A stretch of DNA of 64,000 nucleotides, taken from NCBI RefSeq assembly GCF_000328475.2, contig NC_026478.1, forward strand, positions 1,674,001 to 1,738,000. The letters run 5' to 3'. Position numbers and translations under genes: made by a program. A model generated the notes under the pieces. It worked only from the letters and a program-made list of their open reading frames with translations. It was not told the origin of the DNA and made no database searches. Positions within the stretch are counted from its first letter, which is position 1. Every line of letters starts with the position of its first letter. Of this stretch, positions 1 through 64,000 are shown in pieces. This stretch comes from Mycosarcoma maydis. Lineage: Eukaryota; Basidiomycota; Ustilaginomycetes; Ustilaginales.

Positions 1-542
1 TCGACATGTTTGATAACGCGGCCGGTCGTGACGGTGCGGGAGCTGGGTGCGGGTTTGGCCTGAATCCGTTGACATCTTCTGAATCGTGAATTGGTTTGGT
101 GTGCTGATTTGGCTGACTCAGCCAAGTTCGCCGTTCCGATCGACAAGATGGAATCGCGGCACGCGCTACAGCGGCGAAAGTTGGCTCACATTCGCCGTGT
201 TGCTGCGTGCGCACATTCGCGATTCGCGATTCTCACGCTCTGCTGTAACTTTGGGACGAATCTGCTATCGAAATGGCATGTACAAGATGAGCGACGGGTG
301 TCATCGACACAAACTGATCTGATCTGATTTGATTTGACTGTGTCATGTGACGCTGCTCCGAAATGCAAGGCCACGAGATGGCGTTTGGAACGCCCCTAAA
401 AACCAAGCTTTGAAAGAACTGACATCACAAGACCCTGCAGCGCCAATCGTGAATCACGATTGGACACAACGACGCTGCCAAGTACTCGTGACTGATATAA
501 GAGTCGAGCGTGTTACAGAGCCAAATGTGGTGGTGCGGCGAA
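1..542. other. Intergenic region at window edge
   Basis: No credible gene is visible. The segment holds one copy of the dispersed CGTGAAT motif at 81-92 and a near-perfect 21-base palindrome of the same motif at 443-463. It lies downstream of the NUDCD1-like gene, so the right end probably includes that gene's 3' untranslated region. Confidence 0.6.
443..463. repeat. 21-base palindrome of the CGTGAAT motif
   Basis: The left arm CCAATCGTGA and the right arm TCACGATTGG are perfect inverted complements around one central base. This is the most symmetrical member of the dispersed heptamer family described in the findings. It lies about 80 bases beyond the stop codon of the NUDCD1-like gene. Confidence 0.8.
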
Positions 543-3062
543 TTACAAGACACCTCGGAGCAAGAGGATCCGATTCTCGCACAGACACACTAGCGTATCC
601 TCCCACCGTTCATGATCGACATGGGCTTGCATCGGCAGACGAACGTTGCATACGCCGAGAAGCGGGCCGCTCGCACCACGTTGACTATTTCCCCCGGTGG
701 CTTCGTCTCCGCTTGTCGCTCCTGCTAAACGCAGAACGCGCGAAGGAGCACTCTGAGCAGTGCGTTCCGCCGTCGAGTAATACACGAACAAGTTGCCTGC
801 ACCCCCACTTGAATCTGTCCGGCTGCCTCCTGTAACGCGAGGCGCACTCTCAAATGCCAGTACTGCAAATCCTTGGCGACGCTTATAAACGTGGATCCGC
901 TGAGCATCACGTTTCGAGGCGAGCACAAACGACAGCGCTGGCATAGTGCATGTGTGCATCCAGGCTCCATCGGACAAGCTGAAAATCGCTCCGTCCAGCT
1001 CGTGTTTCATCACGACCGTATCGTCATTGTTCGATCCAGGTAGCGGTGTGGCTAGTACGGTCCAACATTCCTTGGAGCTGCGTACGTGTTCATCATGGCC
1101 AGTGGAGATGGTTGTGAGGACCAAAGGACGCCCGACATTTGCATCTTCTTCCTCGAGACTGTCTTTGAGCAAGCTCGGCTGGTCGAGCGAGAGACTTGTA
1201 CCACCATTAGTGGTGAAAGCGGAAGCGGAGGCATCGAATCCTGTACGATCCATCCCAAATCCTTGGGTCGACTCTTCGTCAACGGTATACTTGTCCATGC
1301 CCTCTAGCATCGTGAGCAGCTCGGAAGGGTCCATCGTCTCCGGTACATCGTCTTGGTTGTCCTCTTGGTCGATTGCTTCGTGTCGTTGCTGATCGTCTTT
1401 GATACCCGATTGGCCATTGGCAGCGCGCTCGACAGTGGATCTGGCTTGCTGAAAGCTGAGTTGTGTCCGACTTGCTGCCTCGGCGTGCGTCTCGCGGTGT
1501 CGAGTGCGATCGCCAAATACTTGCATCCACCGCGTCCCTTGATGCTTCTTCTCGAGATGCAGCGTCAACAGGCTCACGCGCTTGGCTCGCTCCAACGTCC
1601 ATACGCTTCCTGTAGGGTCGATCTCTCCCCACGTACTTCGCGAGGTGTATCGCCCGGAAGCGATCATCCGTGCCGCCCGTGTAAGCTCATCGTCTTGACC
1701 CGTCGCAGTTTGGCTTGTGTCCGTGTTGATTTCGGTGATTCTTGATGATGAGGGTGTGTTGAGCAGCGTCAGTGCATCTTGCGTGAACGACAGACTGAGG
1801 GCCGAGAGAGAGAAATGCGCTCGAACGTGCGAAGTTGTGATCCACGATGGTAGGGCAAATGCGAGGGTGAGTGTGTCGCTTGTCTGTGCCCACGAGAAGT
1901 GGGGGGCTGGTCGTCTCGATGCAACTACGGGAGAAGGCGGGTTGGTGTCTGAGCTTGTACTAGTATCTTTGAATGACGTTGTTGTGTCTTTCGACTGGTT
2001 TGTCGTGTCCCGTAAGCTGATGAAGCGTGCTTCCGCGCCGAGGAGCGTGTGCTGCTCGTCTAGGCTCGCCATGATCAACGGCTCCTCGCCTCGAACCTCC
2101 CACAGCAGTGTGGCATCGCTCATCACATCAGCGTCATCTTTGTCCGATCCCGTCGAGGCTGGGTCGGCCAGATCGAGCTCCACTAGTCGCACATCGAACA
2201 CCGTACTGCTTCTAGCTGATTGTTCCGTTTTGGATGCTCCTGCTTTCTGTGAGCTTGGTTGAAATCCCAACCCCTGCATTCCCTCGTTTGCGCTCTCGGC
2301 GTCCACTGTGATGGTCTTGGTACTCTGTATCAACACATGGATCTTACTCTCGCTCCTTCGAGACGCTTTGATGGTGCCTCGACGCTCTACCTTCCATCGC
2401 CGCTCTTCCGCGCTGATCCACCTCGCCGACCTGTGTTCGTTTCCTAGGTTGACGTTCTGTAATCTGAGTAACACCAGGACGTCTGCGCTGTACACCAGCC
2501 ATTCGGTTGCGGAAATCGACGCCAACGACGGCAGCGACTCCTGGTCAGATAGCAGACGATGTACTGGATGACCGATAACTCTGTCATCTGCCACGTTGTA
2601 TGTCAAGACCACCAAAAATCCATTCGTGTCGATGTACGCCGCACACGGCTCGTCAGCACGCCTCTCCCCTACAGCAGGAACCAGGACCTGATACAGCGAG
2701 CGTTCCTTGGTCTCCTTATACCCCAGCGCAGAAACCTTGAACTTGGCTCTGCCACCTTCGCCTTGTGGCTGATAAAGCTCACAAAGTGGTGGTGGCCGAC
2801 TCGGCAATGCGTACGACTTTACACAAGACGACGCGTCATCTTGGATGAGTTTGTACGCTTCGAATCGCGCATTGAGCTTGCTTGGGTCTATGGGAAAGCG
2901 AAGAATCGCAGGGTCGATGCGAGAGCCAGACGACAGCGCTGGATGTGTGCGTAGTGCAAGACGATGCGATTGAGAGTATGCCATCCTCAAAAGTGGATAC
3001 CCGATGAGGTCGTCCGAAGAAACGGGTGTGTGGGTTGAGAACAACAACACGTCTACAACCAT
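543..3062 (-). CDS. NudC domain-containing protein 1 (NUDCD1)-like
   Basis: This single-exon gene codes for about 839 residues. The open frame starts one codon earlier at TTG, so ATG at 3062 is used. A motif ending FEAYKL near residue 70 resembles the N terminus of human NUDCD1. A CS (p23/NudC-like) domain at about residues 390-520 starts near PHFSWAQTSDTLTLAF and includes the conserved strand around STWGEIDPTGSVW. The C-terminal part shows the family's ASKRD block and ends with a short hydrophobic strand. NUDCD1 family proteins are Hsp90-associated cofactors; human NUDCD1 is about 580 residues, and the extra length here is serine- and threonine-rich linker. The function is inferred from family resemblance. 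A downstream in-frame Met (MAYSQSH) is an alternative start. Confidence 0.75.
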   Translation of the reverse strand: MVVDVLLFSTHTPVSSDDLIGYPLLRMAYSQSHRLALRTHPALSSGSRIDPAILRFPIDPSKLNARFEAYKLIQDDASSCVKSYALPSRPPPLCELYQPQGEGGRAKFKVSALGYKETKERSLYQVLVPAVGERRADEPCAAYIDTNGFLVVLTYNVADDRVIGHPVHRLLSDQESLPSLASISATEWLVYSADVLVLLRLQNVNLGNEHRSARWISAEERRWKVERRGTIKASRRSESKIHVLIQSTKTITVDAESANEGMQGLGFQPSSQKAGASKTEQSARSSTVFDVRLVELDLADPASTGSDKDDADVMSDATLLWEVRGEEPLIMASLDEQHTLLGAEARFISLRDTTNQSKDTTTSFKDTSTSSDTNPPSPVVASRRPAPHFSWAQTSDTLTLAFALPSWITTSHVRAHFSLSALSLSFTQDALTLLNTPSSSRITEINTDTSQTATGQDDELTRAARMIASGRYTSRSTWGEIDPTGSVWTLERAKRVSLLTLHLEKKHQGTRWMQVFGDRTRHRETHAEAASRTQLSFQQARSTVERAANGQSGIKDDQQRHEAIDQEDNQDDVPETMDPSELLTMLEGMDKYTVDEESTQGFGMDRTGFDASASAFTTNGGTSLSLDQPSLLKDSLEEEDANVGRPLVLTTISTGHDEHVRSSKECWTVLATPLPGSNNDDTVVMKHELDGAIFSLSDGAWMHTCTMPALSFVLASKRDAQRIHVYKRRQGFAVLAFESAPRVTGGSRTDSSGGAGNLFVYYSTAERTAQSAPSRVLRLAGATSGDEATGGNSQRGASGPLLGVCNVRLPMQAHVDHERWEDTLVCLCENRILLLRGVL

Positions 3063-4722: not shown

Positions 4723-5997
4723 TGTGATTGATGTTATAAAAGGAGGATTGAAAGTAAGGTATGAAAGATGGGTTTGAGAAGACGATGAACGTGAAGAGCG
4801 ATGGATGGAAGAAAGAGGTTTGGAAGCTGTTAGGAGACGGTATATGTATTGCTTGGTCACTTGTGGCGGAGGCCAAGACAATTGTGAATTGTGAATCTGT
4901 CCGCTCTCGGACCTGGGAAGAGCAGGCGACTTTTGCGCTTGTCTTCTCAATCGCGCTCTAAGTTGAGCCGTAGACGGTGCACTTGCCGAGCAACACAACT
5001 GGCCGAGAACTTCACTAAGCGCTTTCAACGATCATGTTGGGACCATAACTTGTCAGCAGAACGTTTGGCGACTCAGCCTGAGCGTTTGTGCAGCGACTCA
5101 GGATTCGGCACAAGGTGGAGGGAAAACCAACGAGTCATGAATTCTCAGTCCGTGCGCTGCTGCAGCGGATTCGGCGCAGGATGATTTCACAGCTTTCGCA
5201 CGAGGCGTAGATTTTTAATGATATGACGCAATGCTGCTTGCATTTTGGCATTTACCTAAGTTATTTTTAAAATCGCACTCAACACTGCCTCCCACGAAGC
5301 GTGAACCTGTCTTTGTTTCTCACGTTAAGGATGGTAGTGTCTCACTTTGCAAGCAAGAGCAACCAGAAGCTCGGAAGACGCCATCTCACATCATCCTGCT
5401 CAACGTGTTGCAACACGCAAAGAACTCGTGAATCTCTGTCGCCGAGAACCAGCAAACTTTGTAGATCCTATCACCGATGCTTGATGACGGTTAGGCATGA
5501 TGATGGTCTTGATTGTGAATCGTGAATCTTGACGCCGGTCAAATCCATCTTCTTCTCACATGCAACATGGTCGCGGTCCAAGACGGGTCCAGCCGTCGTC
5601 TTTCACGTCGCGTGTCGTGACTATCCGTCGAAGAGCATGGCTGTGTCTGGGTCACCAACAAGAATCACGAATATGCTGTGATAATTAATTTCGCTCGGAA
5701 CACTTCGGCCTCGCTACATACTTGATAGCATTCGCGCTGTACGCTCTTCTCCGCTGCATGTGAAAATACGCGATGGTCACCAAGTGTTGAAATCAACGTC
5801 TTCCTTCCCTCGACTTTTCCCGCAGCCTTCTGCTTAACATACCAGATTCACGAGTGTACCGCTACACGATCTTTCCGCTTGATCTGCAATCCGCATAAGC
5901 CTCACCAGAGAGACAGGTCTCCAGCCTTGCAAATCACACCCGCAGGCAACAGTCAGTTATACATTTAGCATCGTTTGTAGGATCGCTTCAGCCACAT
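4723..5997. other. Intergenic region upstream of LEA-like gene
   Basis: This 1.3-kb space lies between the LEA-like gene start and the 3' end of the helicase gene. It contains the heptamer variants at 4881-4899 (GTGAATT type) and 5511-5529 (GTGAATC type). No open frame with an ATG start and protein-like composition is seen. It probably holds the LEA-like promoter and the helicase 3' end. Confidence 0.5.
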
Positions 5998-8900
5998 CTA
6001 CTGCAACAAGGCAAGATCCTTTTCGTTGGCGCCCACACCAAGAACCTTGCATGCAAGCTCGAACAGCTTCTCCTGCCCCTCGCTCCACTCTTTGCCTGGG
6101 TTCCTGAAGCTCGCCTTCATCAGCTTGCCCAAGCCGTCCCTCAACGTCTTGAGTGCAACCAAGCTTTTCGGGTCCGCACTTGCAATCCTGATCCTCTGTC
6201 TGTCAATGTACAAACTATTCGAAGCCAGCCTGAACTCTCCATCTCCGCACAGCATGTAGACTGCCTTATCGTCCATCAACCCTGTTTCCCAGGCATACAG
6301 CTTCTTGCTCTGCATCATCGTGTAGTACAGCATATAGCTGCTCGACCCGCGTACCAGCTCGGACATCTTGACTTTGAAGTTGACAGACGAGGGATGAATT
6401 GAGGTGGGTTGGTTGTTTCCGATCGTCTTGAGCTGGTAGGTCTTGCTATCGATATGCAGTAGTTTCGGGTAGAGACCAGCAGCCAGAGTCGCGTGAATCA
6501 TGGCAAGACTCGACGAGTTGACATCCAGGTGCGCAGGAATCGTCATAAAGCGTGGCTTGGAAAAGTTGGATGAGCCACCACTGCGGTACCTCAGCTTGTT
6601 GAGTTCCTGCCTGAAAGCATCGTCGACCGTGACAAAGCCAGCGTCGACCAGGTACGAAAAGTACTGCTGGCGGAGCTCTTCGATCTGCATCAGGTTCTGG
6701 ATGCTCAGGAAACTGCGGTTGCAAAACGTCCGGTGGTGGTTCTGTGCAGTGGAGCGACGGAAGCCGTTGAATGCGTTGGCGATGGTGAGGAAATCCGAGT
6801 CGCCGAGCTTGAAGCTCTGCTTGACACGGTCCGCCTCAAGCTCTTTGCCAAATGGTGTCACAAAGGGCGACTTCGAGTTCAGTGCCGCTGCAATCGTGAG
6901 AGCAGGATCCAGACACTTGAACAAGGTCGCGACCAGCAGGAACTTGCCCATGTGTACATCGAGTGGCATCTTGGACAAGTGTCTACCAAGATGCGTGATC
7001 TCCTCGGTTGTCGTCAGCGCCTTGACCTCGACAAGTGCCGCAATGGCACGCTGCACATTGGCAGGGCTTGGAGGATCCAGTGCTTGCGACAGTGCGTTCT
7101 CAATCGAATGTCCGATCTTGATCTTCATGATCTTGAGCTTCAGAGCCAAGTCCTGTAGCGACAGACGGAGCATCTCGGGCAGTGGATGTTCGTCCAAGTA
7201 CGAATCGTGCCGGTACTTGGTGAACAGGTGGAAGCAGATGCCTTCTTGTACACGACCCGCACGGCCGCGTCGCTGCTTGGCATTGCTCCGCGCAATGAAG
7301 CATTCCACCAGGCGCGAGATTTGGCGCTTCTCATCGTAACGCATCTCGCGGTGCTTACCCGAGTCAATGACGCAGGTGATGTCGGGAATTGTGATACCAG
7401 TCTCGGCAATGTTAGTGGCGATCACAATTTTGCGTACCCCGGGAGGAGGTACATGGAAGACAGCACCCTGATTCTCGGATGAAATGGTCGAGTGCAGCGG
7501 GAAGAGCTGAAAACCACTTCCACCGAAGGTGGGGTGGTCAGCAAGCATATCGTGGCATTTGCGAATCTCGGCCAGACCGGGCATGAAGATGAGCGTCGCC
7601 GCACTGTATGGCTCAAGGTCTTTCTCGAGACAGACGCGCTCGAGAATCTTGATGATGAGATCATGATTGATCACATACTCGTTCATCCTACCGAGTGTGT
7701 CGATCGTCTTGCTTCGGTAAGCTTTGCCGAGACTGCCGGTGCTAGGACCCTGGCCATCTGGGTTTTCGTCATCATCATCTAGCAGACCAGGGTCATCTTC
7801 CTCCTCTGCGGGTGCTTGAGCTAGCAGCTGCAGCTTACTCTTGTTTCCTGGTGCGTTCTGCTTACGCGCATTGCCATCACCGTTGCGGTAGCCACGCTTG
7901 GGGCGGAATGCGTAAGGCGAATCGTCTTCGATAGTGTAGTTGCTCATCTCGACGGCGTCTTCGAGGTAGTGCACGTTAACCGGGAAGGTACGACCAGGAA
8001 CAGTAATCGTAGGGCACCCACCACAGTACTTGCTGATGCGCTCTGCATCCACTGTGGCTGACATGAGAATCACTTTGAGGTCCTTGCGATGCGCGATTAG
8101 CGTCTTGAGGATAATCAGCAAGAAATCGGACTCGATAGAGCGCTCGTGCACTTCGTCGATGATGACATGCGTGATTTCGTTGAACGCAGTGCCTTCAAGC
8201 ATGCGGAGAACGATACCCGTCGTGGCATAGACGAGCCTTGCATTCTTGCCGACGTTGCTCTCGAGACGAATTGCGTAGCCGACCAAGCTGTCGTTGCTTC
8301 CGACGCTCTTGCGAGGCTCTCCCAGCTCTTCGCTCACACGCTCAGCTAGCGAGATAGCCGAGATACGCCTTGGCTCAGTGACGTAGATCTTGCAGTTGCG
8401 ACCCTGTGACATACAGTGCTCGACGATGTAGGCGGGCACCTGTGTCGATTTGCCACATCCCGTCTCACCACTGAGCACAAAGATCTGATTGTTCTCGATC
8501 AGGTCGAGGATCTCCTGACGATGATTGGCGATAGGCAGATTTTGTCGGCCAGGAAGCATTTTCTGGTAGGAAGGGGATGCGACACGGTTGGTGAAGTATT
8601 CTGCGATCTCTTTTGACCTGGCTTCGGAAGGCTGCGGCGCACAAGCTGCCGAGAGCTCGCCAAGTTTGGTCTGCTCTGTAGCTGCGGGAGCGTTGGCGGG
8701 GGCGACCTTGCCTTTGGCCTTCTTCGCTGCAGACGCTTCGTCCATCTTGACACGAATGATGTCTCGCACACGTTGGAAGCGTATTCGACTCTTGCGATCC
8801 CGTTCGTCCTTTTGGAGGGATGCGAGCTCTTCCCACCACTCGCGGTAGCCGGGAGGAAGCGCGCGTTGAATCGACTTGTCACTGTCAATGCAGAAGAGTG

Positions 8901-11052: not shown

Positions 11053-11552
11053 CTTGTGCCGCGACACTTCCTCGATGCAAGGCTTTTCTGATGGTTGAGG
11101 AAGGGAAGACGATCGAGGTTGCACTTCTCGTGTGATGCGAGCAGTTCATCTTCTATGCAGGAGTCCAAGCTCAGCTGTGACTTTGGGCAAGTGAGCGCCT
11201 TTCGTGTTTGCTTGTATCTGTTCTTCTGGAACGTCACACAAGAAAAATCGCCGTTACCCGTGACTGCTCCACATGCATGGCATGGCCCGTGGTCTTTTCT
11301 TTGGATGTTACACCTTACACCGATGACAATCACGAATCACAATTTGACGCGCTGTTCACGTTCAGGTTCATGCCTTTCCGACATCCGCCTTAAGACTCCT
11401 TTCTTCCGAGTCTGTATGGTCTCGACCAAGTCGCGCCTGACGAGACCTCGACCGATCACAGAAGCAACATCACCACCATCAACCAAACTGCTCTTCTCTC
11501 ACCGCACTACTGCAAAGTTGCTCAGCAGTATAGACTGACCAGACTTACAAGT
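11053..11552. other. Divergent promoter region, DHX29-like / IES1
   Basis: This 500-base space separates two divergently transcribed genes and must carry both promoters. One inverted heptamer copy lies at 11331-11346. No additional gene is seen. Confidence 0.5.
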
Positions 11553-14201: not shown

Positions 14202-14369
14202 TGCTGTCTTCCACCACAGATCGAATTCAAACTCATTCGTGATTCTTCTCTGACATCAAATGTCTTTTCACACTAGCGTTGGTTCGAACAGGAGAACGTG
14301 TGTTGATGCAAATGCCATGAGAAGCTGATACAAATACAATGAGAGAGTCACGAAATGCCAGGAACGAGA

Positions 14370-15083: not shown

Positions 15084-15396
15084 TATTTCAAAGCTTGTCA
15101 GCGAACAAAGCGTCGTATGTGTTGATGTGATAGAGTTGCGAACGAGAACAAAGGGGATGGTGTGGGAGAGGGAAACTTTTTTTTGGTGGAGCTGCAACGC
15201 AAAAACTTAGGTTGCGCACACCGTTGCAATTCCGTTTGCCGAACATAAAAATTTCGCACGAAAGGAAACCGTGAATCACGAATGGTGAATAACTTCAAAG
15301 CGTGACCGTGGACATGTGAGGCAACTCCGACGCAAGACAGCTGCACCCGAAGCTGTCACAACCTAATCAAACAACGCAATACAAACGGATGCGAAT

Positions 15397-15405
15397 TCCC
15401 TTTGT
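15397..15405 (-). promoter_or_regulatory. Pheromone response element (Prf1 site)
   Basis: A perfect ACAAAGGGA on the minus strand, about 600 bases downstream of the bE stop. Confidence 0.6.
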
Positions 15406-15520
15406 TCTCGATTGCAGACCAAGGTCTTCCCTTTCGTATCACACATCGTTCTTTGTGAATCACAATGCTGAGAGGCAGAAGGTAAGATGAAGTCGAGAAA
15501 ACTCTCGTGGCTGATGCCAA

Positions 15521-15529
15521 ACAAAGGGA
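15521..15529 (+). promoter_or_regulatory. Pheromone response element (Prf1 site)
   Basis: A perfect ACAAAGGGA on the plus strand, second member of the cluster downstream of bE. Confidence 0.6.
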
Positions 15530-15764
15530 GAAGGCGTAAAGTTTCGGTGCGAGAAGGTCATAGCGCCCACTTAACTTTCGGCACCAGGTTGGGCGGACAA
15601 GCCGCCCCTTTGTTTTCTGCGGGTCACCACATAGTTCAGCAGACGCTGAAGGCTGGTGGAGCCGTTGGAGACTACGATACTCAAACCTGCCGCAGATGAG
15701 ACGGGGCACTACCGCAGCGTTGGAACATTGCCTTTGTTGTTATACACTCCGCACGATACAGTGG

Positions 15765-15773
15765 ACAAAGGGA
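15765..15773 (+). promoter_or_regulatory. Pheromone response element (Prf1 site)
   Basis: A perfect ACAAAGGGA on the plus strand, third member of the cluster downstream of bE. Confidence 0.6.
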
Positions 15774-15976
15774 ATTGTTGGGCTGCTTATGCAGAGCACA
15801 AAGGCTTTGTGTTCCCAAGCTCACTGTGCATGTGATTGCGAACAACAGCACTTTGTCTGATACTTTCTCATCCAATCATTCGTTCTGTCAAGTCTCCCAA
15901 ATACTGTCTGTGCACAATGGTGAGCGTTACAGAGAGAGGTGAAATTCCACGAGCAAAGCAAGGACAAGGAAGAGAT

Positions 15977-15985
15977 ACAAAGGGA
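15977..15985 (+). promoter_or_regulatory. Pheromone response element (Prf1 site)
   Basis: A perfect ACAAAGGGA on the plus strand, only 18 bases past the bE stop codon, so it probably lies within the bE 3' untranslated region. Confidence 0.6.
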
Positions 15986-16003
15986 CTAAACGTATCACTG
16001 AAA

Positions 16004-17499
16004 TCAGCCAAACGCAGTAGAAAGGCTGTTAGAACTGAGTGATTCCGTGTGCAGGATTGGCAGCTGCAATTGCGCCGATCCAAGCGTTCCAAAGCGTGGG
16101 AAAGCGGTAAGCTGATTCGAGAGATACGAGATGGTCTGACCGCCGCCATTGACCTGCGTGTGTCCTGATAGGTGTGGTTTGATCTCCTCAGTCGCATTGT
16201 CGAAGATGCTCGTCGAAAATTTTTCCTGTTTGTCTGTGTGGCAGAATGTGAATTGTGTCTGTTTAGTCAAACGAACGCAACGGAAAGGCAAAGGAAAGGA
16301 ATCTTACCATTGTCGACCTCGTCAGGCTGCTGCTTTCCAGCCCGCTTCGGAAGCGCTTTGACTTTCCTATTGCCCCTGGCTTTGACTGTCGGACTCTGTA
16401 GAATATCGTTTCCATCCTGAAAGGGATTGTAGTGAGACATTGAGAGACTGCTCCCGAATGTACTGAAGCTCGTGTCCGCTGTCGAACACATGCTGAGTTC
16501 TGGAGTCGACTCTAGCTTTGAACTGTCCAAGGTGCTGTCAATGGAAGGTGTTGTGCTTGCTCGCGGGTTCGCTGTTCTTGACTTTGGTTTTGCGGCTGGT
16601 TTAGTTTTGCGCGCTGGATGGCGCTTCGCTACTGTGGTGACGGGACGTGGCATGCCAGGCTTCGGAGTCTTCTTGCTCGCTGCGCAGAGATCATAGACCC
16701 AGTCTCCAACTTTTTCTTTCACGCCATACTTGATCCAGCTGATCATGCTTGCCCAGTCATCTTCGAACTGCTGCTTGTCAACAGGTGTGAGTGGTCGTCC
16801 GAGGTTGTCTGATAGAACGTCGTCTAGATTGTTTGAGAGAGAATCAGACGTCGATGAAGGAGGAGTAGACTGGTTTGATGAAGACAGCTTGGCCCGTACC
16901 AGATGTTTCATCCGTGAACGATCCTCGCGTGCGAACTTCTTCAGAATATGAGACCATCCAGAACGACGGCGTGCGTTAATGAACCATAGCGTGAGCTGAT
17001 GAACCTCGAGCGGAGGACGATTTACGCTGGACTGGCCAACTCTTGCTGTGGATTCGTTGGTCAACCTAACGAGGGTTTCTTTCTCTTCTTGAGTCGGATA
17101 AGGGTTGTCGAGAGTAAGGAGAAAGTGTTTACGCATGTGATACGCAGGAAGATCCTCCGAAAGATTTCGACACCCTACATCAGGACTTACGACATTGAAC
17201 TCCTGCATGACTTTGCTCGTGCCGTGAACGACCTCGGAACACAGAGAGACGAACTTCTGGTCGAAACGTATAAATGCCTGGGCAACGGCTCTAATCCTGT
17301 GTGTAGTCTGGTGAATTTGCTGGATCGTTTCGGGATCGCGGGGTAGGTTTGCAATGTCGTTGGGTATCTTTTGTTGCAGCTCTCGGAGTTTACGCACGAG
17401 AACGGGGTAATTCTCCCCTTTATCTCGCAGAAACTCGTGCTCGATCTCGTTGAGGCACTCCAAGAAGCTTATGAGCGAGAAATTCGGGTCGCTGGACAT
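16004..17499 (-). CDS. bE: b mating-type homeodomain protein bE (HD1 class)
   Basis: Two exons: 17499-16308 and 16233-16004, with a 74-base intron (donor GTAAGA at 16307, acceptor CACACAG ending at 16234, branch site CTAAA near 16255). The spliced product is 473 residues, matching U. maydis bE. Reading through the intron stops at 16267 and gives 410 residues. The N-terminal ~110 residues form the allele-variable dimerisation region. The homeodomain spans about residues 117-182 with recognition helix WFINARRR at 172-179. A basic region with KRHPARKTK near residue 300 probably serves nuclear import. bE pairs with a bW from a different allele; the heterodimer is the master regulator of filamentous growth and pathogenic development. 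The frame opens earlier, but MSSDPNF at 17499 is the recognised start. It is transcribed divergently from bW and its 3' side carries a cluster of Prf1 sites. Confidence 0.97.
16234..16307 (-). other. bE terminal intron
   Basis: Donor G|GTAAGA, branch-like ACTAAAC, acceptor ACACAG. The junction is in phase 1, and among nearby AGs only this acceptor keeps the downstream frame. If it is retained, translation stops 13 codons into the intron, replacing the last 76 residues with 13. Confidence 0.85.
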
Positions 17500-19905: not shown

Positions 19906-20216
19906 TGGCGTCGGCTGACTTTGAAAGCGCCCACTGGATGGTGCTTTCTAGCGAAAACGTATACCTGCTTCTTCTCTACACTTCTATACCTGGTGGACCA
20001 TCGACATCGGATTCGTGTCTCTTTCCTGCTTGCTCCGTTCCACCTCCCTCCGTTGTGCTTTCTTTGGTTCGTTCAAATGTGCTCCTCAATGTGCTTCGTT
20101 CAGCTTGTCTACTTTTCACAATTCTCAAATTCCAGAGTTCACATTCACGATTGTCAGAAGCTTGTTCTCTAGGATGTATGAATTACTTGTATGTAGTGCT
20201 AGGAGCCGGGAGAGCT
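19906..20216. other. Convergent 3' region, bW / nat1
   Basis: This 311-base region lies between the bW and nat1 stop codons. It is T/C-rich and probably holds both 3' ends. No further gene is seen. Confidence 0.5.
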
Positions 20217-22898: not shown

Positions 22899-23528
22899 AT
22901 TGGCGAGGCGAGTGTCGGAGTCGGTGGTGAGATGAGCACACGGATGGCCTCTCAGACGGAGAGGCTGCTAAGCTGCCTTTTTTGACCGTTCGATGCGGAG
23001 AGGAGCGAACTAGAAGATGGAAGTGAGATTGGTTGCCAGTACGACTCAAGCTATTGTGCTAGTTACCCGTGCGTTGCAGGTAAGTGACTTGGCAAAAAAG
23101 CGTGATCTTCTTCCGATTTTTGTCGCGCGAAAAACCCGAACAGTCCACAGAATCACGAATGAGGCGGCACACCACGATGTTCTTCCTATCTTGTGATCAC
23201 ATTCACGATTTCGCGTTTCTTGTTCCGTCCGGCTGGGTTTGGGAGTCGTGAGTGGTTTAGTCCAGGGATTTTTGTGCCAATGTTCAACCGCCTCAACACA
23301 CAAACATGATTCGAGCCAAAAGTCCGATTCACGATTCACGATTCACGATTCACGATTCGTGATTTGTGATTCGGCGCTCATGCACCTCCACGCCGACACA
23401 CGCGACTGCCCAGCTCTCTGGCCGGATAATCCACGTTTACTCTTCTTGCTCATCAACCATCACTATCAAGCCCGATCCATCTACGGCTCGAGGGGTGCCG
23501 CTAATCAATCCCCTTTACTAACACACAG
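22899..23528. other. Divergent intergenic region with heptamer array
   Basis: This region lies between the nat1 start and the first supported coding sequence of the membrane protein gene. It contains inverted heptamers near 23149 and 23200, a CGTGAGT variant at 23244-23254, and the longest heptamer array of the window at 23326-23374. A short first exon of the downstream gene may be hidden here. Confidence 0.5.
23326..23374. repeat. Tandem heptamer array ATTCACG
   Basis: Four perfect ATTCACG units occupy 23327-23354, followed by the variants ATTCGTG, ATTTGTG and ATTCGGC, so the array switches orientation within its length. It is the largest cluster of the dispersed family. Confidence 0.85.
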
Positions 23529-26848: not shown

Positions 26849-28040
26849 GATGGCGACGGTGACGGCAACGCCAAAGCCGGGTGCTATAAGCGGGGTACGG
26901 AGAGCTACGGACCGTGACTAGTTGTCAGACATGCAGGAGCGAGATGTTGAAGCTGCGCGATAGGGTGTCTGTGCGGGTTGGATTGTTGCTTCACGGTACC
27001 TTTATACTGAAGATGCAGTGCGGAAAAAAGCGGGTTTTGCTGCCTGCGATGGCATGCAAGCTTGGGATGATGGCTGAGAAGATACTTATGCCGTCAGCTT
27101 TTCATAAGATAGAAGCAACGTGGAGGAAGCCAAGCCGACAAAGTGGTAAAGTAGCATGCGGGGACGAGAATGTGGTCTTGGCGAGGTTGCCGAGAAATTC
27201 GCCAGACAACCGTGAATCGTGAATCGTGAATGCTAATCACGAATGCTAATGCTACTCTGTAAGTTAATGAATGCGAATAGGGGTCAAGTGGCCAAAAAGC
27301 TCATGAATTCCTCCTGATTGCAGTGCAGTCATGAGTCGTGAGTGATGCACTTTTTAGCACCGCCTCGTGCCTCGCAAGAAATCACAGAAGCACGAAACAC
27401 GAACCGTGAATCGTAAATCGTGAATGATCATGTTCAACATCTCGCATCCTGAGTGCTCTAACATCGTTTGACAGAAGGCGTGGGGACACGTGACACAGAA
27501 AATGTCACGAATAGTCACGAGTTAGTTAACGGTTGTGACTTGAGCTCCACTTGGTGCTTTAACCTAGCACAAAGCGTGAAGGTGAAGGTGGCTCGAGCGA
27601 ACTGGGCTCCACGCACAGCCTCTCGATTTGTGTGGAATTCGTGATAAACTTACAGCCTGGCCTCACCCAGGTAACTCACGACTGCAGCTCCGCCGGTGCT
27701 GTGTGTAGCTATGTGCCTGTCTCGATTTAAAATCAAGACTAATCGTGAATTATTGGCCGGCTCAGAATCGTGAATCGCACCGAGCAGCACCGATCTGAAT
27801 CCCAAGCGAATCAGCTGCGATGGCGCTGTGGCAGCAGCTACGTGCATCTTGTCTGCCGTCACAAATACTGCCTGCCTTTCCGTGCCTGTGCGGCTCAGTG
27901 ACTTCGACCCTTGATTTGCTTGCTAGCGTCTCTCCACACCGCAGCTTGCCTCACATACTTCTAGTTTGGTCCATCGCCCATCGTCTTTCCCAATCGAGAC
28001 ACCGCAACGTCTACCCCACATCGCTGCTCGAGTAGCAAAG
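26849..28040. other. Divergent intergenic region, RIM9 / SLA2, rich in heptamers
   Basis: This 1.2-kb region holds the promoters of two divergent genes. Heptamer clusters lie at 27210-27246 (three tandem CGTGAAT plus an inverted copy), 27404-27426, 27741-27752 and 27764-27777, with a CGTGAGT variant at 27334-27345. A TCGATTTAAAATC block at 27721-27733 precedes a heptamer. No RNA gene or credible frame is seen. Confidence 0.55.
27210..27246. repeat. Heptamer cluster CGTGAAT x3 with inverted copy
   Basis: Three tandem CGTGAAT units are followed by GCTAATCACGAATGCTAATG, which carries an inverted unit flanked by a repeated GCTAAT. Confidence 0.8.
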
Positions 28041-31178: not shown

Positions 31179-31582
31179 GTGGTTTGGTCGTCCAGGCTGT
31201 GGTCCTTTCCTCATGTAGTCTTTTCTTATAATGTCATCACGATGCTTTGACCCCGGTGCGGCTATGTGCTTGGTGCTGTCTGGTTGCTTTGGTACATTGA
31301 AGAGTCTCTGTTTGCTGAAAAGGCTGCCCTGATGTTCGTTACTACAATGTGGAATGCGTACAGAGTGGCTTTTCGATTTAAAATCTCAATCGTGAATCCT
31401 AGCGTAGTCACGAGTTGGGAACGGGTCTGTAACACAAGGGCTGGTAACCGTACAGATTCAGTTTCGAGATCTCAGATGATGGCTGGATGTGTTTATCTTT
31501 GATAGGTTGACTGCTCGCGGCAGAACAGCAAGCCCAGGCCTTCTTGCTTGACGAGCTACTTTGGAATAGGCTTGGCGAAATG

Positions 31583-31748
31583 GCGCTGGCTTCTCGAGGC
31601 TGTCAAAAGCATCGGCAAAGAGCCGCCTTTATTTGGCTGGCAGGACCCTGACAGCGCTCAGCGCTGGCTTCTCGAGGCTGTCAAAAGCATCGGCAAAGAG
31701 CCGCCTTTATTTGGCTGGCAGGACCCTGACAGCGCTCAGCGCTGGCTT
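31583..31748. repeat. Tandem 78-base direct repeat
   Basis: The unit starting GCGCTGGCTTCTCGAGG occupies 31583-31660 and is repeated without a mismatch at 31661-31738. A third copy begins at 31739 and diverges after 10 bases. The unit length is a multiple of three, so one frame reads through both copies as a 26-residue repeat, but that frame has no ATG start. Confidence 0.92.
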
Positions 31749-33969: not shown

Positions 33970-35590
33970 TCCCGTCCTTGCATGTTTAGGAATGGATATG
34001 TTTTATCAAGATGTGCAAAACATGTCCATATTGTCGAGATGTGGTGGGTTCAGCTGGTTTTCCGAATCGTGAATCCAGGGTCCTTGGAGCGTGATGCGTT
34101 CTTTGAGCTTTCTTAAGTTACAGAGTCGTGAGTGACTATCATGTGCACTGTGTAAAATCACACGCAAAGCTGCCGCCAATTTGTTTGAGGCTGACAAGTC
34201 ACAATTTCCGCAGATGCAGGGACTGCAGGCGAAGAACCTGACCTACAGGTCGAGACTAGCGTGCCAAGGCGTTGTACTTGAGACTCGAACTTAATTGTAT
34301 CTTTTTGCAGCAGAGGTCTACCCTACAAGCTTAGAGTTTGAAGGCGCACACGTTGGTCGCAAGGTGAGGTGAGTGTATTGCATGGTGGTCTTGCAAGAGC
34401 GCAGAACGCTTAGCGAAGACAAAGGGCGTCAAGACCAACCGCTCGTTGTCTCACTAGCCCGACACCTGTCAGCAAGACCGAGGAAAACAGCTTCGATCGA
34501 CCACTCGTCTATCAACAGCCACCCATCCTGACCAACACTAGATCTGCACGACAAGCTGTATCTAGCTCGCTGGCGCCTCAAGAGAAACTGTGTCGCCGCA
34601 ATTTTATTACATAGCGTCGTCCCAAAGACGCCGAGAGTCACGCGAGTCGACATCGACAACAGATGACAACGATGATGATCAGCCAGCCACCTTGAATCAG
34701 CAGCAATATCACAGAATGTCAGCCCTCGGCTAAGCAAGAGCGGAACAACTCGGTTTTCTTCTATAGTTAGGCGGAATGAGCTCCGTCTGTTTCGCGCTTG
34801 CGATCCTTAGATCCAGGCAAATCTCACAGCGCACTTACCTGCACACGCAGCTGTAACCACGGATGGACATAACTTAGCCTTCACGCTTGGAGCACGGGAA
34901 ACGAAGAAGTTCTCAATGGCCTGGCGCCCACAGATCCAACTACCCGATCAAATAATGTCGACATCCTGAACGGTAATTTCAGCAAGGGCCTTCACATTCC
35001 CGATTGAAGCCAGGCGTTCACGGTTGGAGAATCACGAATTCAAATCTCTACAGAGATTGAATTGAGGCGAGATGAGTGACCTCAGGTTTGTATTCACATT
35101 AGCTTTTTTTGACTGCTGGCTAAATTCCCCCTTTTCGGATTTTTGTGCCTTTTTCAGAAGAGGGCCCAGACAGCGTCGGTATGAGGGTAAGTGTGAGACT
35201 GCTGCTTCTACCCGTAATCATTAAACAAGTTACTAGGTCAGGCGGCTCGAGTCGGGCTGGAGAGTCACGAGTGGGTCGATTTGACTTGGCTGCAGGCACG
35301 TTTGCAATTGTGAATGGTGGGTTCTATGAGTTATGCTGCGTTTCGTCCGATTTTGATTATTTTTAACTTACTCACCATTTTGAGTGGACAAACATGACTG
35401 AGAATCACGAATTGCGCCTGCGCCGCCTGCCAACCAATCGTGATTTCGTCAGATGCATGTTAGCGAATTGGCCTGCCAAGCAGGCACAGCCCAAAGGCAA
35501 CTTCAGCTAAACGCCGTCCCGCCAGCTAGTCAGCCTAGCCCTTACCCAGCTTGGATCTCGATCGGATTTTGATTCGAAAACTGACACGAC
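33970..35590. other. Gene-free intergenic region
   Basis: This 1.6-kb region lies between the flavoprotein stop and the casein kinase leader. It holds heptamers at 34064-34075, 35029-35040, 35401-35413 and 35437-35448, CGTGAGT variants at 34124-34135 and 35263-35272, and TTAACTTA-like or TTAAGTTA words at 34111 and 35364. Open frames are short or lack ATG. I see no tRNA. Confidence 0.5.
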
Positions 35591-44904: not shown

Positions 44905-46426
44905 GATGGAGTGAGTCGGGTCGTACGAGGAGAATAATGTGGCTGAGTTGTTCGGGGACAATGACGATGTTGAGGAGGGCAGACGGAGCTGCTGCCGGTT
45001 ATCCGGAAAAACTAGTGAGCAGACACCAGATCAAGGTGTTGTATTCCAGTGTGTTCAAAAGATGGTCTTGTGGGTACGGAGCGGGTTAAGGCACGAGGCC
45101 GTATGCGGGCGGCGATTAGACTCCCGAACGGTTGAGAAGGTGGCCGACATCCATGATGGGGAAGCGGATCGTGTCGATGCAGAGACAGCTAGAGAGCTGT
45201 GCCGGTGTCAAGATTTGGTGGGGAAGTTGGCGATGTGACAGCTGCAGGAAAGGCATCTGAGATGAAACGAGCAGCAGAGAAGCGTGCCTGCTTTAAGCAA
45301 GCATGGTGAGCGAGCTTACGTAGAGGTGGAGGAGGGGTGGCCTGGTGAACGTTGTGGATGTTTGATCAAGGTGGTGGACGGGTATAAGCCAACGGAGATG
45401 ACTTTGTGGTTAATTATGGTCTTGAACAGCGAGAGAAGGGACTAGTCAGTAGGGATGAAGAGAGATGAGTCGACCAAGGGTAGAGGCCGAGGTTGAGGCT
45501 AAGGCTGGGGCTGAGTCAAGATAAGTGGCCAAAAGATCAGAGTCAGGGTCCAGTTGTGATTCGTGATTCATGTGCATAGGGTGCGCTGCAAAGTAGCTCG
45601 GCAGCACATCGCAGTCACGAGTCACAGTCACAGTCACACCATTATCACATCACACGCCGTCACCTTTGAGGAGAAAAAAACACGCGCATCGGCTGGGAGT
45701 CGCGATAAGTTAGGTTAAAGTACGCAGCTGAATGAAATTGCGGTGGGGCGTGCTGGCGCACACTTACGCACGCCTTCCAAGACCCGAGTCAGAGACGTGC
45801 GTGAGTCGTGAGTGATGCTGCGTCGAATCGTGAATCTACAGTTACGCCTAATATGACTCGGCCATTTCATCAGAGTCATCAAAGGTGCCGGTCCTCTGTC
45901 GCTTCTCTGAATCATAAGCCGGTTAAGAAGCAACGCAAGGACACAATGACCGCCAAGGTCGTTGTCAACCCTTTGCATAAGCAGAGAATCGGACTGAGCA
46001 ACCCTAATTTCGATCCACAAACACGGTGACTCAGACCAACCTTGACCACTCGTGACTCCTGGACGAATCGTGAATGTTGTCATTTTAGCAGCCTGATAGC
46101 GATCCAAGTCTGTCGGCAGTCGATGGCGCCAGCAAGGCAGCGGTGACGTGAATGAATCTGAAAGGTCATTCGTGAGTGGTATCGCGCGTCGGTGGCTTGA
46201 TAGCGTTAACCGGTTCAATCCCGCACCTCTCCGAACGGGATGCCCTCTATCATTTGTGACGGATTTTTCAAAGGGACAATCGTGAATGGCGCCATCCCGC
46301 ACATCGGACTGATCAAGCGCAAATACACCCTACTTGCAAATCGTACGCCTCGTCCGCTCAGTCCACATTCACGAATTGAGAACGTAAAGTTAACTTACTT
46401 ATTAAGCTTCAGCCCCTCAACCCCGC

Positions 46427-46451
46427 AATCACGAATCGTGAATCGTGAATC
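46427..46451. repeat. Heptamer cluster, inverted plus tandem CGTGAAT
   Basis: One inverted unit (AATCACGAAT) is followed directly by two tandem CGTGAAT units, inside the 3.9-kb gene-poor region. Confidence 0.8.
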
Positions 46452-46924
46452 TGACCAGTCCGTAGCGCTCGATTGCCTCATTTTTTAGTTAAGTTGCACC
46501 GCAGTCAGTATCACACACCTTCGCAAGATCTGCACTCGCACGCTGTCAGAATCGTGGGAGCCTCGCTTGCTCCGCTGATGAAATCACGAATCCACTTGGA
46601 TCATAGCCTCGCTTGAGTATCAATATGCAGAACAGACAAGCAACACTCGTGATTGTGCCGCAGCCCAACGCTAGCAGAATGCGAGCTTGAGCGCCTCTTG
46701 CACGCCTTCGATATCCCCTGCATAGCTCAGCGATTCACAGATGCCTCTGCCTGAGCTTAAGCGAAACAAGCTTCCCTCTACCATATTTTGCGCGATGCTG
46801 GATCGTCTCTGTAACCACCGTTCATGTTGGTGGTTTCCTCGCCGGACAGCAGCTGTATCTTCAATCCTAGGTTACTCCCGATTTCTCTCACATCGAAAAT
46901 ACACTCACCATCCAGAGTCCATCC

Positions 46925-46942
46925 CAATCGTGAATCGTGAAT
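46925..46942. repeat. Heptamer cluster, tandem CGTGAAT
   Basis: Two tandem CGTGAAT units followed by the variant GGTGCGAAATCAC. Confidence 0.7.
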
Positions 46943-48782
46943 GGTGCGAAATCACCTCATTTTATTGAATAAATATTACATGCAGCAAAAAGAGGTACAC
47001 AATTTTACTCGAATCGTGAATTTGCTTGCTGACTCATAACACGGAACGTGAACGTAACTTTCGAACACGCATAGACGGTCTCACAGACCGTGATGTTGAA
47101 ACACGGGACGGTGCGCCTGGCAAGCCTCGAGCGAGTCCGTCGCAAAAAAAAATCATTTCGCCCATGAAGGAAAAGGACTCAAAAAGCGAATCACGAACCA
47201 GCAACGAGTGAGCGCACTCACGACTGCTTGTCATCTTCCGCATACACGGTCTGGGCTTGCTGCACAAGAGAGCGAAAGCGCTTCCTTCATTAAACAAGCG
47301 CTGGGGCACCTTGGCTAGCGGAGCAGAACCGTCGAACAGATGCATACGCACTCAAAGGGAAGCAGGCATCGTAAAGCACAAATGGTCCGAGACGAAAAGG
47401 GGCTTCACTCCTGTTGGAAAGGAGGAAGCGAAAGATAAGAAAGTGGCTACAGGGCATAAGTCGCCGTGTTGACGCACGAGCTTGGACGCCGCTAGCTTGG
47501 CAACCGTCGCGGCGACATCATGACTCAACAGCGTATTCCGTGGTTCTCAGCCTCCCCTTGACAGCTCACCGACGGGCTGAATCGAAGCGCAAGCCTGCCT
47601 AGGTGGTCGTATGACCGTAAAGCTTGCCACATCAGGAAAGGCTAGAGAAGTTCAAGCAAAAGAACAAGATGCAGCTAATCCGCCCATTAATTTGGGGAAG
47701 AAGCGTAACTTCAAAAGGGTCTCGCTCTGACGAGATGCATCGCGCACTCTTCCGCGAGACTTGGCATTTTAATTTTCGCCACTTCGTTCCAGTGTTGCTT
47801 TCCCGCTCCTTGAGGGGTGCAGGAACTTCATCGGCCAGGTGTGGCCACAGAGCGTCATGATTCGGTCCTCCGTATTGGTTCAGAGGCCCACTAGTAATAT
47901 CGAACTAATCTCGACGGTGACAGAGTTTCATGTCGAGATTCACATGTCATCGTTCAACATCAATTACGGGTTTCGGACAAAGTCATCAGGAAAGACCAAT
48001 CGAGAGTCTGCTGACACGCGTGCAGCCAGAGACACATTCGAGTGCGTGCTTGGCGAGGAGCTGCAGCTAACTTAACTAGTTCGCCAGTCGTGGGTTGAGG
48101 TGTGTGGATTGATCCGACTTTGGGTTGATATTTGTGATTCAACGGGCTTGGTTCGGAGCCTGTGGTCACTTGCTGCAACACAATTTGCCAGACTCACATT
48201 CACGATTCAAGCTCGCTCCATGAATACTAAAGGTGTGACCTTGCCGCTTCTCTGATAACAGTCGAGGCAAAAGCTGCCGCAACCCTTGGCGGGTTTTCGG
48301 GTTCTTTTTAACTTAAATTGGTTTTGGCCTTCGCTACGCTGTCAGCCATGCATGTCTGTGCCTGTGCAGCGCCTCGTGACTGTTGAGCTGCTTAACTTAA
48401 TTGGACCCTGGCCTGTCAGTCACTGCCATACTGCCGCCTGGTTCATGTGTGTTCTCGAGTGTGTCCTTGCCTATCTGCCTGTCTGCCTGCCTTGGGGCTG
48501 ACACCGCTGGAGACAAGAAGAAGCGCGCTGTTGTAAAGCAATCTCTCCCACCTTGGCTGGCGTGTGATTGCTATCACCCACATCCTCCAGCTGCGTTGGT
48601 CCACCTTCGCTCTCAACGACTCGTTCCCTTGCAATTGCACAGACCAAGCTCACATCGAGTCTAAGTGACCAGCAGGCAGCACGGCGCATCACATCTTGGC
48701 AGATCTACAAGGCACGGAACACTTCCGATAACAACTAATAAAACATCGCAAACGTCAAGAGCCACAGCAAATCTGGGCCATT

Positions 48783-52658: not shown

Positions 52659-53272
52659 CTTCCTCTCGTGGATTGAATCCAGCTGGTAGCAGTTACAGTC
52701 ACAGTGTGCCGTTTCGCACGTACTCACGACCGTGACTTGTGTTGCACGTTGCACAATCACAAATGAAGGTTTGTTCATAAATCACGCATGATCATCTTTG
52801 ATTGATGTGTCTCACAAGTGGTGAGTAACCTCTAGAGCTCCGCAATCATCTGCGGCCATAGAGACTTGAAAATACCGCATCCCGTCCGATCTGCGCAGTC
52901 AAGCAAGTCGTCGCCTAGTCAGTACTGCGGTGGGGGACCACGCGGGAATCCTAGGTGCTGCAGTTGTTTTTTGTTCTCGCTCGTTATATGAACTGTTCTG
53001 TACTGCAGTAATTCTATGGCTGTTGCGGCGGGTTTGGGGGGCGGTGTTGTTGTTCAAGCTCATGCTTGCCACGGTCATGGTCGGGTGGGTTCGCGCGTTG
53101 ATGGAGGAGGGTTTTGTGCCTGTGGATGTGGAGGTGATTTATGGACGGCACGGGGATCGGAGGTATTTGTCAGACGCGAGTTAGGGTGGTCCGAGCTGAC
53201 ACTGATGGAGTGGAAAGGTGTGCTCGGGCGGACAAGCGTTGCTACCACTAGAACCACCACACGCAAACGCTC
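52659..53272. other. Intergenic region, F-box gene / GLO2
   Basis: This 0.6-kb region holds the F-box 3' end and the GLO2 promoter. A hydrophobic 84-codon frame at 52930-53184 begins with GTG and has no ATG near its start, so I do not call it. A heptamer-like CAATCACAAATG lies at 52753-52764. Confidence 0.5.
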
Positions 53273-56791: not shown

Positions 56792-57809
56792 AATGTAGAA
56801 AGCGTTGCTTGGCTGGTTGCAATCATGGCGCAGCCTGCTGCGAGGACCACGGCTCGGAAGATCCTTTCGCACACGAACGAATGTGCGTTTGGCTCGTAGA
56901 GGGATGGTTGGCTAGCGCTGTGAATGCTGGTGGGAAGCAGCCTCTCTTGTCACGGTCTAGTCATGAGTCGGTGTTGTGCCAAAGTCACGAGTGTGAAGCC
57001 GTATTTCTTATAGACTGTATTCCGACTGTCGACTTTAGCAATCGTGAATCACAAATACACTTCACGATTCGTGATTCCTGAAATGCAATTTCGATTCCCT
57101 GCATCGCGACGCGTACAGATCCCCTCACTCACAACTCATACAGTACTCTCTGCCTTGCACGTTCAGAACTCGTGACGCCTGCTCGTCTCCCGTCCACGTC
57201 CATAGGCTGTGCAATATCGCTCGATATAAACTCAACTTGTACGGAAGGCGGCCTTCGTGATTCATACATGAATCACATGAAACACGGCGTGCCGTGCACT
57301 AAAAACTGTTGGAAACATGTGTATGAGATTGCTGCGGACTCTTTGTGAGCCTTCTGATGCTGCGATATGGTGTGACTGAATCTCTTTTCGAGAGAAAACA
57401 GGCTAAAACGTGGGATGCGGAGACAAGAATGCGGGAAAACAGACTCGCCTTTGGTCGTCGATGTAAATACAATCGATCGACCTTTTTGATCGTGGAAAAG
57501 CTTTGATCTGGTGAATAATCAAGATGGCAGGTGATGATGGAGGACAGGAAGCCGGGAGGAGAAGGAAAGAAGGGAGACGTTGACACGACATGCTGCAGCT
57601 CCACGGATCAGTAGCCGCTGCAATGCATCGCATCGACGATTTGGACGGACGCAACTCCATCCAGACAGCTTGATGCTGCTAGACCACAGCTAATGGACGC
57701 CGCAAGGAAGAAAAAGTACAAAAGGAATCCCGAAAAGGTTGCGGTCGAACAAACAGTTGTGAAGTACAGCAGCGCTGCCTGTGAACCAGCAAATGTGCAA
57801 GACAACCGC
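56792..57809. other. Intergenic region, AT-hook gene / RPS5
   Basis: This 1.0-kb region lies between the AT-hook gene start and the RPS5 stop. It contains a heptamer cluster at 57039-57077 and an inverted pair around 57256-57284 (TTCGTGATTCAT and ATGAATCACATGA), plus CGTGAGT-type copies near 56964 and 56985. No gene is seen; its right end is probably the RPS5 3' untranslated region. Confidence 0.5.
57039..57077. repeat. Heptamer cluster with inverted copies
   Basis: AATCGTGAATCAC at 57040-57052 is followed 9 bases later by TTCACGATTCGTGATTC at 57061-57077. Each half is itself a near palindrome, and the two could pair into a longer hairpin. Confidence 0.75.
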
Positions 57810-63207: not shown

Positions 63208-64000
63208 GTTGTTGACGGTGATGCAGGCCACCCAGTACTACACGGAAGGTGTGGCTAAAGGGCCGGCGGGCATCGAATAGGGGATTTTTGCTGGGTTTGT
63301 CGGAAGAGACCAAGCTAGGTTGATGGTGAAGCGATGTAAATCCACTTAATATGCGTGGTGGGACTGGATCGACTAGGCTCGAGCGCGGTTGACGGTGGTG
63401 AAGGCTTTGGATTGCTTCGATCTGAAAGTGTCCCTATCGAGTGGCGGACGCTAAATTGTCGCTTTCAAGAAAGCGTTCTGGGCCCAGCGTTGGTCGTAGG
63501 GTATCAATAGCAGAGCATGAAAACGTTTTCGATGCCGGCTCCTCGTCTATGCGGCGTCAAAAAGTTGTAAGCTGCGTCGACTGATGTCGTGCTTTTTGTA
63601 GATGGCTGCTATCTCTTGATATTGGGAATCGCTAGTGCTGACGTTCCGCGGAATCGACCAAGGAAAAGACGAAAGGGCTGTTCGAGAAGCCTATGGAGAG
63701 ACAGATGGATGGCACAAACACGCAAAGGGCGAGAGGCGATTACGGCAGGCAAAGGTCGATACGAAACCGAGTGGTAAATGTCGGCCGCGCGGATGGATGC
63801 CAGGGTGGTCGAAGAGGCGAAATGCAGTCAAGGACAAGTTCGCGGATGGGTCGGTAGAGGAGGATGGTAAATGGCGAAGGTGATAACAAAGCACACAATC
63901 TGGCTGGTGGCTGATTGAGGTTACGTTGAAAGGCGCCGTGGAGAAGGAAAGGGAGAAAGAAGCGTTTGGCGCGGAGCTGTCTTCAGTACAAGGGGATCGG
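63208..64000. other. Intergenic region at right window edge
   Basis: This segment holds the promoter region of the TBL1-like gene and extends to the window end. Short purine-rich frames occur but none looks like a gene. No heptamer cluster is seen. Confidence 0.45.

Follow-up and report, generated by a model that had tools for sequence, protein, structure and literature searches.

A stretch of 64,000 nucleotides of Mycosarcoma (Ustilago) maydis contig NC_026478.1 (positions 1,674,001 to 1,738,000, hereafter the window) carries between its genes a 10-bp repeat unit, ANT-CGTG-ANT, whose core is found in either orientation and whose two N positions hold the same base. Each unit is probably, with an estimated probability of about 0.8, the scar that a cut-and-paste DNA transposon left on excision. 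This reading is based on the duplication of the ANT target, on the occurrence of empty and filled sites in repeat families, on the random orientation of the core and on the presence of matching transposon ends next to ANT. The likely source, judging by these ends, is a non-autonomous DNA transposon of the same genome terminating in CACGTCGTRAAAAAAGGAAAAAGTCG.

The gene map of the window was built from open reading frames, coding potential and Pfam matches; introns are partly resolved and some gaps may hide unrecognised genes. This coding sequence (CDS) map divides the window into 42.8 kb inside and 21.2 kb outside. The genome scans covered 19,664,356 bases in 27 contigs, the window being located on contig 1, and the control was the reversed pattern rather than a shuffled genome. 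A first-pass annotation of the window had listed 22 positions of a dispersed heptamer, CGTGAAT, considered too frequent for chance. All 22 carry the motif within 7 bp and with at most one mismatch, the copy at 4881 being the altered form AATTGTGAATTGTGAAT, and 37 copies of CGTGAAT are present on both strands of the window. The pattern ANTCGTGANT is matched 59 times in the window, where 100 dinucleotide shuffles averaged 2.48 matches and never exceeded 7; genome-wide it is found 27,565 times and the reversed pattern 262 times. Among the non-coding 10-mers of the window, AATCGTGAAT is the most strongly enriched, with 26 occurrences outside the CDS map and none inside, for 0.07 expected under a second-order Markov model. 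Its genome-wide count of 9,389 versus 4 for the reversed control is far from the equality with shuffled sequence that would have spoken for chance, and the claimed excess is borne out. The enriched non-coding 10-mers AATCACGAAT (13), ACTCGTGACT (7) and ACTCACGACT (6) obey the same ANT-CGTG-ANT rule: the heptamer is a real motif, but the true unit is the 10-mer with a variable middle base, including ACT and AGT forms. The 52 identical-N units of the window form 43 sites, none of them within mapped gene spans. The proposed confinement to intergenic DNA holds for complete identical-N units but not for the bare CGTGAAT, which occurs in coding sequence at 6492, 12971 and 21989; and where a single partial coding match had been claimed, the AAT/ATT forms are matched with one mismatch at five coding positions (8167, 12968, 24332, 28134 and 51129).

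The relation between both flanks was analysed in a 264-kb set composed of the window and of 10 kb from the start of each of 20 contigs, paralogous stretches being retained. The N is identical in 277 of 303 units (105, 40, 39 and 93 for the four bases, with 26 off-diagonal), while 5000 shuffles of the right N averaged 89.4 identical pairs and reached 116 at most. When the triplets to the left and right of CGTG were tabulated outside the CDS of the window, the diagonal counts were 26, 7, 6 and 13, with 7 off-diagonal. Genome-wide, AATCGTGA[C/G/T]T, where the second N differs, is found 851 times (control 31), to be compared with the 9,389 copies of the identical form. An unbiased scan of the non-coding window DNA, performed with flank lengths of 2-8 and core lengths of 2-13, ranked first a 3-bp flank surrounding a 4-bp CACG/CGTG core. 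When core lengths of 0-30 were compared, the N was identical in 52.6% of the cases at length 4, 35.6% at 11, 33.5% at 3, 32.4% at 0 and 31.6% at 18, all remaining lengths giving about 25-30%; the raised values at 11 and 18 are due to two- and three-unit arrays. Half-sites are few, since CGTG with ANT on its left is followed by the identical triplet in 277 of 440 cases.

Target-site duplication is thus observed on both sides of the scar. The independent flanks with position-wise base preference that characterize a transcription-factor site were not found: the flanks co-vary by identity and all four bases are allowed. Since any base is accepted and yet both N are equal, protein recognition cannot account for this pattern, and a duplication gives exactly such equality. 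As far as sequence can tell, agreement of the flanks whichever of the four bases N is constitutes the signature of a 3-bp target-site duplication, not of a protein-binding site. A palindromic dimer site was rejected, the N of isolated units being identical in 118, complementary in 5 and otherwise related in 7. A strict GANTC target was also discarded, the outer flank being merely somewhat C/G-rich (C+G of 0.74 on the left and 0.70 on the right, versus 0.59 in the background), and a palindromic target preference past the flanking base was unsupported (permutation fraction 0.31). Identical ANT flanks often surround an altered core; ANT-TGTG-ANT, for instance, displays an identical N in 27 of 37 cases. 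Two minor classes were also observed in the 264-kb set, ANT-CACAG/CTGTG-ANT (10 of 13 with identical N) and ANT-CAC/GTG-ANT (31 of 61); they may be scars of 5 bp and 3 bp left by the same elements or by relatives of them.

The orientation of the core relative to ANT is close to 50:50, namely 105:93 for AAT/ATT and 40:39 for ACT/AGT. After deduplication of the arrays, single units account for 210 of 243 runs. Two-unit arrays are of the same orientation in 11 cases and mixed in 10, as independent hits predict, and the near-palindromes described by the first-pass annotation, which are indeed present, are two opposite-orientation units at one target. Three-unit arrays are of the same orientation in 4 cases and mixed in 2, all five four-unit arrays display one orientation and the sole five-unit array is divided four to one. 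Because the five four-unit arrays each share one orientation, long arrays of this kind probably grow further by slippage. Expansions of GTGAAT are found at L011, L012 and L025, three loci of the subtelomeric repeat considered below (loci are cited by their L numbers).

Two repeat families provide five target positions at which empty sites with a single ANT coexist with the corresponding filled forms. The subtelomeric repeat has 33 matches in the genome, of which 30 loci were aligned, three of them not being comparable at the unit position. Fifteen loci are of the empty type, reading ...GC-AAT-G... or nearly so (AAA in L044), and 12 are of the filled type, 5 with exact AATCGTGAAT and 7 altered. 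Among the 55 gaps of at least 3 bp that distinguish subtelomeric paralogs, four measure 7 bp, and three of these are located at the one unit position. The second family, an old repeat of dispersed occurrence, was detected next to a copia copy and has 47 matches and 31 aligned rows (30 copies and L059); rows with fewer than 6 letters at a position are omitted from the site counts. At site A (26 rows), AAT is opposed to AATCGTGAAT in 20 empty-type and 6 filled rows, 2 of the latter exact. At site B (19 rows), ATT is opposed to ATTCGTGATT, with 15 short rows (L059 being ambiguous) and 4 filled, 2 of them exact. Site C (26 rows) comprises 6 short rows and an exact ATTCACGATT in L069; many rows carry a form around ATTCGTGATT that is longer by 14 bp, and others are altered. 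At site D (31 rows), ACT is opposed to an exact ACTCACGACT in L088, to a double form in L087 and to altered forms in L070 and L075; 26 rows are of empty length, five of which have an unrelated left flank and are not to be counted.

An element with CACG...CGTG ends and an ANT duplication was predicted before its ends were seen. The old dispersed repeat which harbors sites A to D terminates in ...ACGACGTG / ...TTTTTTTACGACGTG or close variants, and the core of the scar corresponds to the terminal four bases of this transposon. Right ends were matched by a loose pattern in 21 of 31 rows, with the terminal CGTG intact in 16 of these 21; the sequence continues with AAT, ATT, ACT or AGT in 19 of the 21, followed by unrelated flanks, and with GAT in L063 and L067. 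Scoring of the 26-base end across the retrieved sequence gave 28 hits, four of which are duplicates from overlapping stretches. ANT adjoins 21 of the 24 distinct ends (L063, L067 and L078 being the exceptions), a set that overlaps the 21 right ends. In the genome scan, 45 ends were found with at most one mismatch, 12 of them exact, for 4 in the control; the pattern used includes ANT itself and provides no separate test of the target. Inverted ends and a matching target duplication are united on one copy in L092 (contig 14), where 50-bp inverted ends of 86% identity enclose about 1.7 kb and AAT is present on both sides. Units are also concentrated in two nested stretches, L100 with 18 in 1.9 kb and L101 with 17 in 1.8 kb (non-identical N counted), in which no frame longer than 137 codons was found.

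The transposase genes of the genome were compared with these ends. Four DDE_3 (Tc1-like) loci are present (L048-L051); none is flanked by scar-type ends, and they were rejected as a source for lack of matching inverted ends. One of them, L048 (1359-2444, contig 10), encodes a Tc1-like transposase in an open frame of 362 codons, for which terminal repeats were not found. This protein (P0001) has 12 database matches, eight of them named, seven from smuts (Ustilago trichophora, Sporisorium) and one from a mite; at E 0.01, the Protein Data Bank contains no relative of it. The Harbinger superfamily generates 3-bp duplications. A Harbinger-like DDE_Tnp_4 element was observed at L015 (2989-4856) and L047 (1108-2828), and open frames on the opposite strand of L015 may represent its second gene. 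It is, like the presumed source, a DNA transposon of the same genome, but its ends are AGAGGTTTTGG and not CACG at the two of three loci examined, and it was set aside. CACTA (EnSpm) elements share with the smut ends a start in CAC, a 3-bp duplication and repetitive subterminal DNA; their targets are not known to be confined to ANT. Neither CACTA PF02992 nor Plavaka PF18759 had a match in the genome, and neither model matched in the control genomes either.

Other parallels are found among Tc1/mariner elements. When such an element is excised and the break is repaired by end joining, the footprint that stays lies between the copies of the target duplication; it is described as TAG(T/A)CTA for Sleeping Beauty (PMC2874221), and footprints of 2-4 bp are given as typical (PMC7913693). 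The footprints of Tc1 and Sleeping Beauty are alike in consisting of a few terminal bases between two copies of the target; the smut units differ by their ANT rather than TA target, by a nearly uniform length of 4 bp and by the tens of thousands of copies present in one genome. The TBE element of Oxytricha, also a Tc1/mariner element, is reported to duplicate ANT (PMC4724952) and shares this 3-bp target duplication, but its ends are CAAAACCCC telomere-like repeats, whereas the smut ends are CACGTCGTRAAAAAAGG and have no linked transposase.

The proposed mechanism can be summarized as follows. A transposon with CACG...CGTG ends would insert at ANT, with a weak preference for C/G on either side, and duplicate these 3 bp. 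At its departure, the transposase would cut within the element in such a way that 4 nt of one end remain, and end joining would seal the gap to produce ANT-CACG-ANT or ANT-CGTG-ANT, a net gain of 7 bp. The ANT copies could then be hit again, giving rise to arrays of mixed orientation. A frameshift of 7 bp would be selected against in genes, and scars would accumulate between them. It is inferred that the 4 bp stem from excision rather than from a different activity of this enzyme; the identity of the enzyme and the selection argument are inferred likewise. At neutral fixation a modest rate would suffice for the 27,565 scars: with an assumed 10^9 generations, each genome would undergo about 3 x 10^-5 transpositions per generation.

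Three other explanations were weighed. A transposase, possibly a domesticated one, might insert only the terminal 4 nt directly at ANT, where no full element would ever have resided, the 7-bp unit itself being what spreads. The ratio of 27,565 scars to 45 full ends within one mismatch, the nearly uniform 4-bp length and the lack of any copy with a long transposase-like frame in the examined stretches (as judged from listed open frames) speak in its favor. We know of no precedent for such a micro-insertion. In addition, Tc1/mariner excision scars of this form are established according to PMC2874221 and PMC7913693 and require no new chemistry, and direct insertion is regarded as improbable. Were it nevertheless to occur, no known mobile DNA would in effect be smaller than the 7-bp mark, and the marks, whose density is higher in divergent promoter gaps, may have acquired a regulatory use; this scenario is equally doubtful. 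Less probable is a heptamer minisatellite arising and expanding through replication slippage. Arrays of 3-5 units exist, those of four units are of one orientation, the GTGAAT expansions mentioned above are of this kind and slippage probably does lengthen arrays; it explains neither the preponderance of single units (210/243), nor the reversal of the core from one unit to the next (seen in the mixed two-unit arrays, 10 of 21), nor how one 4-bp core came to lie in thousands of separate ANT sites.

The least likely of the three is a role as a protein-binding site, whether for a transcription factor, at an origin or in an insulator, that selection would maintain in promoters. It would be consistent with the absence of units from coding spans and with their distribution among gaps, 25 sites being found in 7.1 kb of divergent gaps (3.51/kb), versus 1.33/kb in tandem gaps and 2 sites in 2.5 kb of convergent gaps (0.81/kb), with three further sites within the first 542 bp of the window. 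A protein, however, reads bases and not equality, and all of A, C, G and T are allowed at an N that agrees in 277 of 303 units. The scarcity of half-sites (277/440), the random orientation of the core and the occurrence of units in old dispersed repeats are also contrary to it, and promoter enrichment could also stem from insertion into open chromatin. Of the readings offered by the first-pass annotation, that of a small mobile or expanding repeat was right in spirit, while a binding site or a chromatin or replication signal is unneeded and leaves the identity of N unexplained. A secondary regulatory role of the units is possible, though unneeded for the sequence pattern.

Besides the density in divergent gaps, which a regulatory role predicts likewise, several results weigh against the excision footprints. 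No transposase could be tied to scar-type ends among the four Tc1-like loci and the two of three Harbinger-like loci examined. The 45 ends found for 27,565 scars imply very many transposition cycles per surviving copy. Of eight pairs of facing ends from the genome scan that lie less than 5 kb apart, just three have the same ANT on both sides; two of these matching pairs share an end, the third spans another, non-matching pair, and the pairs were picked post hoc. The short rows of site C consist of three ATT and three GTT. The rows of the repeat alignments are related and not independent events, L072 and L083 probably sharing one event. Filled sites could also have become empty by deletion between the 3-bp repeats, the comparison being made with no rooting tree; insertion is preferred as the direction because the duplication itself is dispersed. 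Finally, the sequence shared by ten copia copies, young ones that are about 97-99.6% alike over long alignments (about 22 kb), contains no unit, which may mean that activity is low or past, or that those regions are shielded; the four units of the copia-bearing L059 are located in DNA absent from the other copies.

Long-lasting activity of the source is suggested by the frequent altered cores with identical flanks and by the coexistence of exact and worn units. None of the 43 sites of the window is less than 191 bp from a mapped start codon, and the density in divergent gaps may mean that the elements inserted where promoter DNA is open, or that units were lost from other places.

The units of the window are distributed as follows. 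On the + strand, AATCGTGAAT is found, as an exact match with identical N, at 82..91, and again at 5518..5527, 27416..27425, 27741..27750, 27766..27775, 31388..31397, 34065..34074, 45826..45835, 46066..46075, 46278..46287, 47012..47021 and 57040..57049; ACTCGTGACT at 484..493 and 46048..46057; ATTCGTGATT at 14235..14244, 45559..45568 and 57067..57076; and AGTCGTGAGT at 23244..23253, 27334..27343, 34124..34133 and 45804..45813. On the - strand (forms given as read on +), AATCACGAAT is found at 5663..5672, 11328..11337, 15274..15283 (within a three-unit array, 15267-15290, with altered neighbours), 23151..23160, 27235..27244, 35030..35039, 35403..35412 and 46582..46591; ATTCACGATT at 20143..20152, 23201..23210 and 48198..48207; AGTCACGAGT at 27513..27522, 31406..31415, 35263..35272, 45613..45622 and 56983..56992; and ACTCACGACT at 27674..27683 and 47216..47225. 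Two-unit arrays AATCGTGAATCGTGAAT are located on the + strand at 27215..27231 and 46926..46942. Arrays of mixed orientation comprise two opposed units at 445..461, AATCGTGAAT followed by AATCACGATT with non-identical N, previously described as a near-palindrome; five units at 23327..23364, oriented four versus one, with every spacer ATT; and three units at 46427..46450, the first opposed to the other two, with every spacer AAT. Units with non-identical N are ACTCGTGAAT at 5424..5433 (+), worn or mixed, and at 5846..5855 (-, as read on that strand), AATCGTGATT at 35436..35445 (+), ATTCGTGAGT at 46168..46177 (+), ATTCGTGAAT at 46367..46376 (-, as read on that strand) and ACTCGTGATT at 46645..46654 (+).

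The window includes the smut b mating-type locus, with PF05722 at 16267-17499 and the homeodomain partner at 17583, as well as a 5S rRNA gene at 52848-52966 on the + strand (Rfam RF00001, 105.6 bits). A perfect 78-bp tandem duplication (31583-31748, 2.1 copies, 100% match) is located between an ANTH/I-LWEQ gene and a ferric-reductase-like gene. Eight copies of ACAAAGGGA, which matches the U. maydis pheromone response element, are found at 14829, 15397, 15521, 15765, 15977, 18415, 30195 and 36368, four of them within 15397-15977, between a Sas10-like gene and bE. TAACTTA/TAAGTTA, outside the scar family, has 10 non-coding copies in the window (5257, 27260, 34114, 34870, 35364, 45706, 46391, 48068, 48309 and 48393) and none in coding sequence, for 0.52 expected.

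Excision footprints are known mostly singly, from assays. A search of the literature, with most subscription-journal papers outside its reach, gave no recognised description of this repeat, nor of a genome of which about 1% consists of one nearly uniform kind of footprint; one U. maydis primer includes the motif (PMC2219887). The 27,565 units of 7 bp amount to about 193 kb, or about 1% of the genome, for which transposable elements are reported at only 2.1% (PMC9603552), and footprints appear to be a main ingredient of its intergenic DNA. If this interpretation is true, a compact and repeat-poor genome keeps a base-resolution record of past transposition, whose scars would reveal where insertion was tolerated and would provide a set of insertion/deletion markers for population work. 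Enriched motifs of smut promoters may then be scars, not binding sites.

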